A stretch of 53,706 bases of DNA, taken from positions 1-53,706 of the forward strand of contig JAUVZB010000008.1 in assembly GCA_030602785.1 (NCBI GenBank). The letters are read 5' to 3'. The notes under the pieces were generated by a model. The model did not search any database. It had not been told where the DNA came from and saw nothing but the letters and a program-made list of their open reading frames with translations. The stretch comes from Dehalococcoidia bacterium. Its GTDB lineage: Bacteria > Chloroflexota > Dehalococcoidia > GIF9 > AB-539-J10. Shown one piece after another: positions 49,530-53,542 of this stretch (positions are counted from its first letter, which is position 1; the number at the start of each line of letters is the position of its first letter). Position numbers and translations under genes: made by a program.

Positions 49530-50501
49530 TCACCGTGCCCGAAATCGGCGGATGAAGAAGCGGTGGTCACCGAAAGCGACCTCCTTCAGCTTCTCCTGCC
49601 GCACAATCCACTCCACCATCTCCCAGCTGCTCCCTGTCTTCTCGAGGAAGGCCTCCACCTGGTCCGAACGCATCGGGTGGACGGATGTGATGGCCAGAAG
49701 GTCTGCCTCAGCGTCGCCCGTCGAGGCGAAGGCGGCCCCTTCGAAGCCGATGAGCATCTCAACCTGCTCCACAGACCCGGACAGTATCTCGTACGCGCGC
49801 ACGAGAACGTCCTCCCCGGGGGGCAACACTCCCTCGACCGCCGGCGGGCGAATCGGAATCGAGATATACGAGCGCCGTGGTCTCAACCACTCGAAAAAGG
49901 CCGCCAGCGGCTTCAGGTCGTCAGGCGAGTCGTTCATTCCCTTCACGAGCATGGTTTCGGTATCCAGCTCCCCCTTGAACTCCCGTGCAAACTGGAGCAC
50001 GCCGTCCAGCACATCCCGGAGCCGCAGGTCCCCGTGCGGGCGGTCGACACGGCGCCATGTATCGTGGCGCACGGCGTCCAGCTTGACGGAGACGCGGTCG
50101 GCCCTGGCAAGGTCTCGGCGCACGTCGCCATCTGAGAGGAGCGACGCGTTCGTGATGACCGCGAGCGGCACACCGGTTGGCCGCAGGAGGTCGAGCTGGT
50201 CCCCGAGCCTGGAGTCCAGTGTCGGCTCCCCATCCGGCACGAAGGTGAGATAATCAACCTGCTCGCCCCTCTCCGCGAGCTTCCGAAGCGTGGACCTGAC
50301 GTCCCCGAGCAACTCCCCGGGGTCACAGTGAGGCTCGCGGTGCACGGTGAGGCGACTCGTGCGGCCGAGCTGGCAGTAGACACAGGAATAGCTGCAGGTT
50401 TTCGGCGGAATCGTGTTGATGCCCAGGCTCTGGCCGAAGCGCCGTGACGGCACCGGACCGAAGACGTGGAGGGGTTGCGGAGACTGCTCGGGAACTGTCA
50501 T
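49530..50501 (-). CDS. Radical SAM protein
   Basis: SAM-binding 4Fe-4S motif CSYSCVYCQLG (CxxxCxxC, near residue 37) is followed by TFVPDGEPTLD (the GE motif) and IPIRPPAVEG. The family (COG0731-like) includes the wyosine-type enzymes and several unassigned ones. GAGGA precedes ATG 50501, so I preferred it to ATG 50516. It may be co-transcribed with the Fe-S cluster genes upstream (136 bp gap), which would supply its cluster. The substrate is unknown. Confidence 0.8.
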   Translation of the reverse strand: MTVPEQSPQPLHVFGPVPSRRFGQSLGINTIPPKTCSYSCVYCQLGRTSRLTVHREPHCDPGELLGDVRSTLRKLAERGEQVDYLTFVPDGEPTLDSRLGDQLDLLRPTGVPLAVITNASLLSDGDVRRDLARADRVSVKLDAVRHDTWRRVDRPHGDLRLRDVLDGVLQFAREFKGELDTETMLVKGMNDSPDDLKPLAAFFEWLRPRRSYISIPIRPPAVEGVLPPGEDVLVRAYEILSGSVEQVEMLIGFEGAAFASTGDAEADLLAITSVHPMRSDQVEAFLEKTGSSWEMVEWIVRQEKLKEVAFGDHRFFIRRFRAR

Positions 50502-50637
50502 GGATTCCTCAGACATTCATCGTGGTTGTCAGCGTTCCGCATGAGGGGTGTGTCTCCGCATTGCTCACAGCCCGGGCGGTTCAGTATTCCCGCTTTCCAT
50601 CCGTCGTTCTCGTGAGTCGCACGGGCGCGAGAGTCGT

Positions 50638-50907
50638 TCAAGCCATTGTGCCGGGTGGGGTGAACGGGTCCTTGCACTCCGGCCAGGCGATGCCGTGCTT
50701 CGCGCCGCGGAACATGTAGAGGACACAGCGGTCGAGCTTGCCACCCCGGCGGTGCTTCATCTCCTCGAAGAGCGTCTCGGGGTCGGCCTGAAACATCTGC
50801 TCCGGGGTCTCAATACCGAGCTCCAGAAGGACGTGGGCCGTCTTCTCTCCCACGTTCCTCAGCATCGTCAGTTGGCGCACCCTCTCTTCCACATTGTCCG
50901 TGCTCAT
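50638..50907 (-). CDS. Cdd1 (pathogenicity-locus) family helix-hairpin-helix protein
   Basis: The 89-residue product has LTMLRNVGEKTAHVLLELGIETPEQMF, a helix-hairpin-helix, and DRCVLYMFRGAKHGIAWPECKDP, the end of Cdd1-type proteins, related to the TfoX C-terminal domain. ATG 50907 overlaps the IscU-MIP18 stop by 4 bp, so translation is coupled. It may bind DNA, but its role is unknown. Confidence 0.72.
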   Translation of the reverse strand: MSTDNVEERVRQLTMLRNVGEKTAHVLLELGIETPEQMFQADPETLFEEMKHRRGGKLDRCVLYMFRGAKHGIAWPECKDPFTPPGTMA

Positions 50908-51539
50908 TCGGTGAACTTCACCTCCACTTCGCTCACGTCCCACAGAGGCTCTATCTTCTCCATTATCTCACGCCTGATGTTGTTGGCAAACTGGTTGGCA
51001 ACGGGCAGGTCCACGGCCACAGTCACTTTGCCGCTCTCAACCACGATGCCAGTCAGCAGTTCTGTCTTGACGAGGTCAAGGCCAACCAGGGGGTTCATCA
51101 CCTTCTTGAGCCGTCGGCGGACCTCTTCGACGGTCGTTGGCCGCCGCTCCTTCACGAGCCCGTGAGTCTCCTCGTAGTTCTCGATGGCTGCGCGCAGACT
51201 GTCCACCGCGAGCACGGAGCAGTGCACCTTGATGGCCGGCAGACCGCCGAGCGCGTCGGCCGCTTCTTTCCAGTTTATCTTCCTGGCCTCGTCGAGCGTC
51301 TTGCCCTTGGCCAGTTCCGTGATGATAGAGGCCGTGGCAATGTTCGAGGCGCAGCCATAGGACTCGAACGTGATGTTGTCTATGCGCTTCGTCTCATCGT
51401 CCACCTTGAGGTACACGCTCACCATGTCGCCGCAGGCCGGGCTACCCTCGGTTGCCTTGGCGTTGGCGCCATCCAGCCTACCCACGTTGCGGGGATTCCT
51501 GAAATGGTCGAGCACCTTTTCGCTGTACGGGGAACTCAT
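50904..51539 (-). CDS. IscU/NifU-like Fe-S scaffold fused to MIP18-like domain
   Basis: Residues 1-125 are an IscU scaffold with the three cluster cysteines in SPACGDMVSVYL, SYGCASNIATAS and KVHCSVLAVDSL. Residues about 130-211 (RLKKVMNPLVGLDLVKTELL, then GKVTVAVDLPVANQFANNIR) are a MIP18/FeS_assembly_P (DUF59) domain. It would assemble a cluster and pass it to targets. ATG 51539 has AAGGAGG seven bases upstream. The C-terminal fusion suggests that one protein does both assembly and delivery. It lies in one run with the IscS-like gene, although the racemase gene intervenes. Confidence 0.85.
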   Translation of the reverse strand: MSSPYSEKVLDHFRNPRNVGRLDGANAKATEGSPACGDMVSVYLKVDDETKRIDNITFESYGCASNIATASIITELAKGKTLDEARKINWKEAADALGGLPAIKVHCSVLAVDSLRAAIENYEETHGLVKERRPTTVEEVRRRLKKVMNPLVGLDLVKTELLTGIVVESGKVTVAVDLPVANQFANNIRREIMEKIEPLWDVSEVEVKFTE

Positions 51540-51617: not shown

Positions 51618-52283
51618 TCAGTATTGTAGCGCTGTCAGGACATCGACCGCGTGCTGGACTCCAAGGGGCGGACTCATCAAGACGGGAACGGGAGTCTCCC
51701 CCAATTCAGGCTGTAGCGCCAGCATGCTTCCCTGCGCACATACGACGACGTCCACCTCGTTCATCAGCTTGTGGATAGAGGCGAGGACAATCTCGTTGTG
51801 CCCCTTGCGGTCGCCGGCGATAATGCGCTCAAATGCCTCCGCGCAGAGCACCTCTGTGATGACTGCCTCCGTGCCGAGCCGCTCCGCTGTCCTCTGAATG
51901 AGGCGAACGGTCGGCCCCATCGTGGAGGAGGCAGTAGCGACAACTCCGATGCGGCTGCCGGTGCGACAGGCGACCTCGGCCATTCTTTCATCTATCTTGA
52001 CGAGAGGAACGTTCACCATGCCGCGCGCGATGTCCGCCGCTTCGCCCACTGATGAGCACTGGTTGAAGATAAGGTCCGCTCCAAGCATCTCAGCCTGCAC
52101 GGCGTAGTTGCAATAGCGTCGCAGAACTCCGGGTGTGACGCCCCCATTCGCCAGTACCTCCGGCTGCATGCTGTCATCGATGATGTTCCTGACCGTGACG
52201 TCGGGTGCAATATCCGCGAACAAGTTCATGAGGTCTTCCCCCGCGAGCCTGTTGGTGTGGATAATGACTACCGTCCTGGACAT
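51618..52283 (-). CDS. Asp/Glu/hydantoin racemase-family protein
   Basis: The 221-residue protein has the two-cysteine pattern of the family: IFNQCSSVGEAADI (about residue 75) and DVVVCAQGSMLALQP (about 180). The cysteines act as acid/base on opposite faces. It could be an aspartate or hydantoin racemase, or an arylmalonate-decarboxylase-type enzyme, with the substrate unknown. Its place between the IscS-like and the IscU genes is unusual for an Fe-S operon. ATG 52283 lies after a modest GGAAGTGAG. Confidence 0.75.
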   Translation of the reverse strand: MSRTVVIIHTNRLAGEDLMNLFADIAPDVTVRNIIDDSMQPEVLANGGVTPGVLRRYCNYAVQAEMLGADLIFNQCSSVGEAADIARGMVNVPLVKIDERMAEVACRTGSRIGVVATASSTMGPTVRLIQRTAERLGTEAVITEVLCAEAFERIIAGDRKGHNEIVLASIHKLMNEVDVVVCAQGSMLALQPELGETPVPVLMSPPLGVQHAVDVLTALQY

Positions 52284-52366: not shown

Positions 52367-53542
52367 CTACCCGTTGTCCTCGCGTGGTGCGAGAGGGCTT
52401 ATCTTCCTCAAATCTCTGACGACCTGCGAAACAGCATCGACGATGCCATCAACCTCCTCCATCGTGTTGTAGCGGCCGAAGGTGAAACGGATGGAGCCGT
52501 GCGCCCGTTCATGGTCGCCGCCGATGCCGAAGATTACGTGGCTGCCCTCAAGCGACCGCGAGAAACAGGCGGAGCCTGTGCTCACCGCGAAGCCACGCAT
52601 GTCGAGATGGAGCGTCACGGACTCGCCCTCCACGAAGTGGAACGTGACATTCGCGTTCTGGGGTGTTCTGTTCGTGCGGTGGCCGTTGAGCGTTGTATTC
52701 GGCACTTCATGGAGCAGCCGGTCGATTACGCGGTCTCGCATTGCGCGCAGGCGCGTTGTCTCCTCTTCCGTAATCAGCTCTGCGGCCTTTGCGAAGCCCA
52801 CGGCAGCCGGAATGTTCTCCAGACCGGCACGGCGGTCGAATTCCTGAAAACCGCCGTCCATCCACTTCGTTACGGGCGTGCCCTTGCGGATGTAGAGGCC
52901 GCCGATGCCATGTGGTCCGTGTATCGTATGCGCCGCAATCGTGATGAGGTCGACCGGAACATCCCGCACGCTCAGGGGCACGCGCGGGAACGTGTGGGTA
53001 GCGTCCGTATGGAAAAGCGTGCCTTTGTCCCTGCACAGCTTCCCGATGCTCGCAATGTCCTGCACCGTGCCTATCTCCTGGTTTGCGTGCTGGATAGAGA
53101 CCAGGATAGTCTCCTTCGTGATGGCTTTCTCCAGGGCGTCGAGGTCGGCAAGGCCATCGCCATCAACGGGCAGGTACGTGACGCGGAAGCGCAGGCGCTC
53201 AAGCGCCTGCGCGCTGCTGAGAACGGGAAAGTCCTCTATCTTCGAGACGATGATGTGCTGCCCCTTCTTCTGCCCGAGGGCCAGTGCGACTCCCTTCAGA
53301 GCCATGTTGCTCGATTCCGTGCTGCCGGACGTGAAGACGAGCTCCTCCTGCGTGGCGCCAATCCGTTGCGCGAGCAACTCCCGGGCAGCATCGAGCCCCT
53401 CACGTGCCTCAATGCCCAGCGAGTAGCCGAACTCCGAGGTGGCGACTGCATACGTCTCGAAGAAGTAGGGCCGCATCGCCTCCAGCACTCGCTCGTCGAG
53501 TCGGCTGGCGGCGGCGTTGTCCATGTATGTGCACTTCTGCAT
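52367..53542 (-). CDS. IscS/NifS-like protein lacking the PLP lysine
   Basis: This is a class V aminotransferase fold with MDNAAASRLD, GSTESSNMALKG, NQEIGTVQDI and the catalytic-cysteine loop STGSACFSRSLE (C326). The PLP Schiff-base Lys is replaced: AAHTIHGPHGIGGLY has Thr206 where E. coli IscS has Lys206. His104 is Asp (KIEDFPVL) and Gln183 is His (TDATHTF), while Asp180 is kept. A normal desulfurase reaction is therefore unlikely. From memory, Archaeoglobus fulgidus IscS also lacks this Lys and works structurally with IscU. ATG 53542 has GGAGGGAC upstream. It probably acts with the IscU fusion two genes downstream. Confidence 0.85.
   Translation of the reverse strand: MQKCTYMDNAAASRLDERVLEAMRPYFFETYAVATSEFGYSLGIEAREGLDAARELLAQRIGATQEELVFTSGSTESSNMALKGVALALGQKKGQHIIVSKIEDFPVLSSAQALERLRFRVTYLPVDGDGLADLDALEKAITKETILVSIQHANQEIGTVQDIASIGKLCRDKGTLFHTDATHTFPRVPLSVRDVPVDLITIAAHTIHGPHGIGGLYIRKGTPVTKWMDGGFQEFDRRAGLENIPAAVGFAKAAELITEEETTRLRAMRDRVIDRLLHEVPNTTLNGHRTNRTPQNANVTFHFVEGESVTLHLDMRGFAVSTGSACFSRSLEGSHVIFGIGGDHERAHGSIRFTFGRYNTMEEVDGIVDAVSQVVRDLRKISPLAPREDNG

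Follow-up and report, generated by a model that had tools for sequence, protein, structure and literature searches.

A lysine-less IscS-like protein encoded with TusA, DsrE, and an IscU-MIP18 fusion is a probable persulfide relay

Lysine-less IscS proteins are linked genetically to the sulfur carriers TusA and DsrE. One such protein is encoded in the window, the 53,706-nucleotide stretch of Dehalococcoidia DNA analyzed here (contig JAUVZB010000008.1). Judged from its sequence, the protein is an IscS-like hub that lacks the catalytic residues of a cysteine desulfurase and that probably works as a persulfide relay. The conserved presence of TusA and DsrE as neighbors suggests that cluster assembly in these cells is supplied with sulfur already in a reactive form.

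An IscS fold with a replaced PLP pocket

The iscS-like gene lies at positions 52367 to 53542 on the minus strand as an intact open reading frame, which begins with an ATG at 53542, ends with a stop at 52367, and encodes an IscS-fold protein of 391 amino acids without the PLP lysine. The product matched PF00266 (class-V aminotransferase/IscS fold) at 230 bits and missed the IscS/NifS equivalog cutoffs of TIGR02006 (360 of 643 bits) and TIGR03402 (429 of 531 bits). A structure model built from the protein's own family had a pTM of 0.87, with uncertainty at the Cys326 loop and at the loop spanning residues 29 to 41. In the PDB, the model matched human NFS1 and the IscS proteins of E. coli and A. 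fulgidus, with TM scores of 0.85 to 0.9 against 1P3W and 4EB5. The closest solved relative is A. fulgidus IscS2, for which the structure comparison gave 42% identity.

A sequence-only reading of the window had proposed that the residues that bind and activate PLP were lost while the loop cysteine was kept, and inspection of the minus-strand codons confirmed each of the residues named. With numbering after E. coli IscS, which also served as one row among the lysine-type sequences, Thr206 (ACG, 52925-52927) occupies the site of the PLP-binding lysine, and Asp104 (GAC, 53231-53233) and His183 (CAC, 52994-52996) stand in place of the usual His and Gln. Asp180 (GAC, 53003-53005) and the mobile-loop, sulfur-handling Cys326 (TGT, 52565-52567) are retained, and the pocket differs at two further positions, where Gln replaces Asn155 and His replaces Tyr208. 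Of the features that mark an IscS/NifS desulfurase, the fold and the mobile-loop cysteine are present in the product, and Lys206, His104, and Gln183 are absent.

The replaced pocket is conserved. Within the genus, six genomes hold the gene, the window genome and five sisters; their proteins are 76 to 83% identical with identical pocket residues, and dN/dS was ~0.07. A homologue scan was performed with one genome per species, the best 80 homologues being 67 to 83% identical. Alignment at positions 104, 183, and 206, the check that the sequence-only reading had called for, bore out its expectation: Asp104, His183, and Cys326 are found in 84 of 84 distinct family members and Lys206 in none, with position 206 being Thr in 81 and Leu in 3. 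Asp180 is present in all members and Thr75 and His205 are present in nearly all, and Cys326 is present in all 204 aligned IscS rows. Because the residues are identical across the genus genomes and recur in 84 distinct relatives, Thr206 is due neither to chance nor to sequencing error, and a decaying pseudogene is likewise ruled out by the sister genomes, the low dN/dS, and the wide conservation. An in-frame TAG noted in two homologues does not fall within aligned residues 1 to 385 and is probably the ordinary stop at the gene end.

When the family was compared to lysine-type IscS, 20 positions were fixed differently, about half of them in or adjoining the old PLP pocket, and the coordinated pocket replacements Asp104, Gln155, His183, Thr206, and His208 were all fixed. 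The family forms one fully supported clade with a long stem and occurs in at least nine phyla (about ten) of Bacteria and Archaea, in genomes that are mostly metagenome bins and for which individual phylum labels could be wrong. The bacterial holders are Chloroflexota, Thermodesulfobacteriota, Myxococcota, Nitrospirota, Actinomycetota, and Atribacterota, and the archaeal holders are Methanobacteriota, Thermoplasmatota, Heimdallarchaeota, and an Altiarchaeales single cell.

Genetic linkage to IscU-MIP18, TusA, and DsrE

The gene at 50904 to 51539 on the minus strand encodes a genuine fusion of IscU and MIP18 (211 amino acids; PF01592 plus PF01883 [MIP18/DUF59]), as had been proposed. The fusion missed the TIGR01999 cutoff (124 of 192 bits) and carries the MIP18 domain in addition, and its model superimposed on A. 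fulgidus IscU (4EB5 chain C) with an rmsd of 1.0 A. The cluster-site residues Cys36, Asp38, Cys63, and Cys107 are invariant in 30 aligned members. That the iscS-like gene sits beside its IscU partner held for the relatives, as the two were adjacent in all 78 testable loci, but in the window an Asp/Glu-racemase-like gene (51618-52283, minus strand; PF01177) intervenes. Among the loci compared, one or two copies of the racemase-like gene between iscS and iscU were found only in the window genus, and a sequence search of the PDB gave no match to its product. Separately, a gene for a radical SAM protein (49530-50516, minus strand) stays close to the operon in several sister genomes.

In relatives, gene order is tusA-dsrE-iscS-iscU-MIP18 in a tightly spaced unit, such that the gene-order comparison suggested by the sequence-only reading revealed carriers that lie off the window contig. 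The operon is conserved across about ten phyla, in anaerobic Bacteria and Archaea. Upstream of the iscS-like gene only the last 164 bases of the contig remain (53543-53706, minus strand), and dsrE and tusA are expected just past that end. In the window genome, the two lie outermost at one end of another contig (C61, locus L140), dsrE at 206 to 655 and tusA at 631 to 858, both on the minus strand, which fits a place directly upstream of the iscS-like gene. No sequence overlap joins C61 to the window contig (C81), and thus their adjacency is taken from the sister genomes. With loci cut by contig ends omitted, DsrE adjoined the iscS-like gene in 73 of 77 testable loci and TusA did so in 70 of 74. 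In Methanococcoides vulcani, carriers are absent from beside the gene, and matching DsrE and TusA are encoded elsewhere in the genome.

The carriers have the cysteines expected of them. TusA of the window genome matched PF01206 at 76 bits and missed the E. coli TusA equivalog cutoff (38 of 78 bits), and the CPxP cysteine is present in 145 of 146 TusA matches. DsrE of the window genome contains a conserved cysteine and satisfied PF13686 at 130 bits but missed NF047629 (68 of 210 bits), and we therefore call it DsrE2-like rather than DsrE2 proper. TusA proteins of these operons (L140 631-858 and relatives) contain the sequence GTHPaSKKEIPMA at a place where, in a by-eye comparison, the E. coli protein has a loop rich in Asp that includes the conserved Asp45 and Asp51. 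Docking of the operon TusA on IscS may differ from that of E. coli TusA.

Carrier linkage extends beyond the window family to other lysine-less IscS. Every distinct IscS locus in the collection was counted, and a gene was scored as linked when TusA and/or DsrE lay no more than 1.5 kb away on its strand. Carriers were found near 125 of 130 testable lysine-less genes and near 0 of 63 lysine-type genes, in a sample of related rows picked by similarity to a few queries and searched with carrier profiles built from the window family. The Fisher p value for association of lysine loss with linkage was ~2e-45, which, given these limits of the sample, does not stand for that many independent events. 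We conclude that lysine-less IscS is linked genetically to TusA and DsrE.

The best tree divided lysine-less IscS into three well-supported clades with different pockets. The first is the window family, with Thr or Leu206 and Asp104/His183. The second is the A. fulgidus type, with Asp206 and His104/Ala183. The third, from Chloroflexota, has Gln, Glu, Ser, or Ala206, with His104 and mostly Ala183. In the window and A. fulgidus clades the carriers are mainly encoded upstream of iscS, and in the Chloroflexota clade downstream of iscU. Both A. fulgidus IscS genes encode the motif SSNDIYGP and are immediately preceded by a dsrE gene (L270, 3976-4326; L271, 5772-6365), and IscS1 also has a tusA gene. 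Several independent losses of the lysine cannot be claimed as proven, as AU tests did not reject a single lysine-less clade (P = 0.16 and 0.31) and the tree holds too few independent pairs.

A proposed persulfide relay and its alternatives

We propose, with moderate confidence, that the PLP-lysine-free protein is a docking and persulfide-relay hub that is loaded by TusA and DsrE and that passes sulfur to the IscU scaffold. Because a Schiff base with PLP is impossible without the lysine, the protein would take no sulfur from cysteine by the normal route. Instead, sulfane sulfur carried by the DsrE2-like protein and by TusA, through its CPxP cysteine, would be loaded onto Cys326 and transferred from there to the IscU domain for cluster building. 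The MIP18 domain would probably help in cluster delivery. We infer the direction of sulfur flow, the persulfide chemistry, and the role of MIP18, and flow could instead run from the IscS-like protein to TusA, as it does in E. coli. The relay is supported by the replacement of Lys206, His104, and Gln183 throughout the family with Cys326 and Asp180 kept, by the association of lysine loss with carriers, and by conservation of the operon. It is further supported by the fit of the A. fulgidus loci, by the carriers encoded elsewhere in M. vulcani, and by ten genomes in which lysine-type IscS was not found. The docking of TusA on E. coli IscS and the sulfur transfer between DsrE and TusA of Metallosphaera, both described below, also favor it.

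Four of those ten genomes, in which a lysine-type IscS was not detected, are the window genome (95% complete), a pair of its sisters, and a fourth member of the class; the other six are those among 23 further genomes that showed lysine-less IscS only, at the threshold used. Most genomes with the family hold a lysine-type IscS too, and thus the main task of the lysine-less protein may differ. SufS was considered as the real desulfurase of the window genome and rejected on the two best other class-V matches, SerC and a remote class-V protein that scored well under the SufS cutoff. Rhodanese domains, conceivable loaders of TusA or DsrE, were present in 10 of 10 genomes checked, but such domains are common and their presence is weak evidence for that role. 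As a separate observation, four loci (L158, L159, L200, and L202; about 1-2649) encode a molybdopterin oxidoreductase followed, in one open frame, by a lysine-type IscS domain (PF00384, PF01568, and PF00266; 1,146 to 1,226 amino acids). The IscS domain may act in sulfurating the molybdenum cofactor of its fusion partner.

The sequence-only reading had suggested that the protein donates its cysteine to cluster assembly or uses sulfide, and such a model has been published for lysine-less A. fulgidus IscS-IscU, as reported in PMC7585200. Here, the protein would be structural and would lend Cys326 as a ligand to the nascent cluster on IscU, sulfur would come as free sulfide, and TusA and DsrE would serve another branch of sulfur trafficking. 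SufB was found in 13 of 15 genomes that carry the family, and the minimal SufB-SufC system of methanogens is able to use sulfide (PMC12192291). The model leaves unexplained, however, why TusA and DsrE are found with lysine-less IscS, that of A. fulgidus among them, but not with the lysine type. The conserved carriers point instead to persulfide delivery, and we regard the sulfide model as unlikely.

Another explanation is that the pocket has been rebuilt for a new ligand, for example, a metal held by Asp104, Asp180, His183, and His205, and performs a new sulfur reaction. The replacements are coordinated and fixed, unlike the products of drift, but the putative ligand set was chosen by eye from sequence, and we consider this explanation improbable.

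The broader claim that the protein follows a nonstandard sulfur route stands insofar as the residues that normal PLP chemistry requires are lost and their replacements fixed across Bacteria and Archaea, but the absence of PLP itself is uncertain. The 4EB5 crystal of A. fulgidus IscS is described with PLP despite the missing lysine (PMC9769115), and, by analogy, PLP might still bind the window protein. Retention of Asp180, Thr75, and His205 likewise means that a phosphate cofactor may still fit the pocket. The protein could then remain a cysteine desulfurase through noncovalent PLP, with TusA and DsrE as acceptors like TusA of E. coli. That outcome is quite improbable: none of the 84 members retains the lysine, the stacking His104, or Gln183, and A. 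fulgidus IscS, which lacks the lysine and Gln183 only, is reported to be inactive (PMC7585200). Finally, a noncatalytic role outside sulfur transfer, as a regulator or as a chaperone for the folding of IscU-MIP18, is highly improbable given invariant Cys326 and the ten genomes without detected lysine-type IscS at the thresholds used, even though such pseudoenzymes are common and IscS1 of M. acetivorans is insoluble when produced without its IscU (PMC7585200).

Relation to known systems and implications

The loss of the lysine is itself already published, for A. fulgidus IscS and M. acetivorans IscS1. M. acetivorans IscS1 and IscU1 (MA0808 and MA0807) were compared through their description in PMC7585200. 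Like the window protein, IscS1 has lost the PLP-binding residues and has the diagnostic loop STGSACFS, and IscU1, at 24.2 kDa, has the size of the IscU-MIP18 fusion (PMC7585200). Moreover, congeneric Methanosarcina loci have the order tusA-dsrE-iscS-iscU-MIP18, and by all signs M. acetivorans IscS1 and the window protein belong to the same family. PMC7585200 describes four neighbors of unknown function for iscS1 and names neither TusA nor DsrE nor the MIP18 domain.

A. fulgidus IscS-IscU (PDB 4EB5, 4EB7, 4HVK, and 4R5F) shares with the window system the missing lysine, the cysteine loop, the IscU partner, and TusA and/or DsrE nearby. The sequence-only reading invoked this pair as a precedent, and the comparison is apt for a lysine-less protein acting with IscU but does not extend to membership in one subfamily: A. 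fulgidus IscS has Asp206, retains His104, has Ala183, and is placed by the best tree in a clade apart from the window family, and its IscU is not fused to MIP18.

The E. coli IscS-TusA-IscU system (PDB 3LVJ and 3LVL; PMC2854127) resembles that of the window in fold, cysteine loop, and partners. E. coli IscS, in contrast, is a PLP-lysine desulfurase that passes sulfur to TusA, and tusA does not lie beside iscS. TusA docked on E. coli IscS places the two cysteines ~4 A apart, and TusA and IscU are sterically incompatible on IscS (PMC2854127), such that TusA and IscU would need to dock on the lysine-less protein in turn. In Metallosphaera, according to PMC4175335, DsrE and TusA transfer a sulfur group between their own cysteines. 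The modules of that sulfur oxidizer, as described there, also combine TusA and DsrE-family carriers in one cluster, but beside heterodisulfide-reductase-like genes and for oxidation rather than with iscS and iscU. The minimal ISC system, MIS (MisS/MisU; PMC12192291 and PMC11559095), is likewise a minimal IscS-IscU pair in anaerobes, but it is described with a cysteine desulfurase, whereas the system here lacks the desulfurase lysine and adds sulfur carriers.

A search of openly available literature found no report of TusA or DsrE with lysine-less IscS and none of an IscU-MIP18 fusion. The founding 2022 MIS/SMS survey may already include genes of this type; with that reservation, lysine-less IscS was known, and the carrier linkage and the fusion appear to be new.

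The linkage to TusA and DsrE, which lysine-type IscS lacks, names candidate sulfur donors for lysine-less IscS, that of A. fulgidus included. A wider reading, which we offer tentatively, is that a branch of ISC systems common among anaerobes, including A. fulgidus, builds clusters without desulfuration of cysteine by its own IscS, and that TusA and DsrE bring sulfane sulfur from inorganic sources to the hub and thence to IscU. If so, the PLP desulfurase would be one of two ways of loading the same hub, and anaerobes would be able to make iron-sulfur clusters without recourse to cysteine, with cluster assembly tied to inorganic sulfur metabolism.
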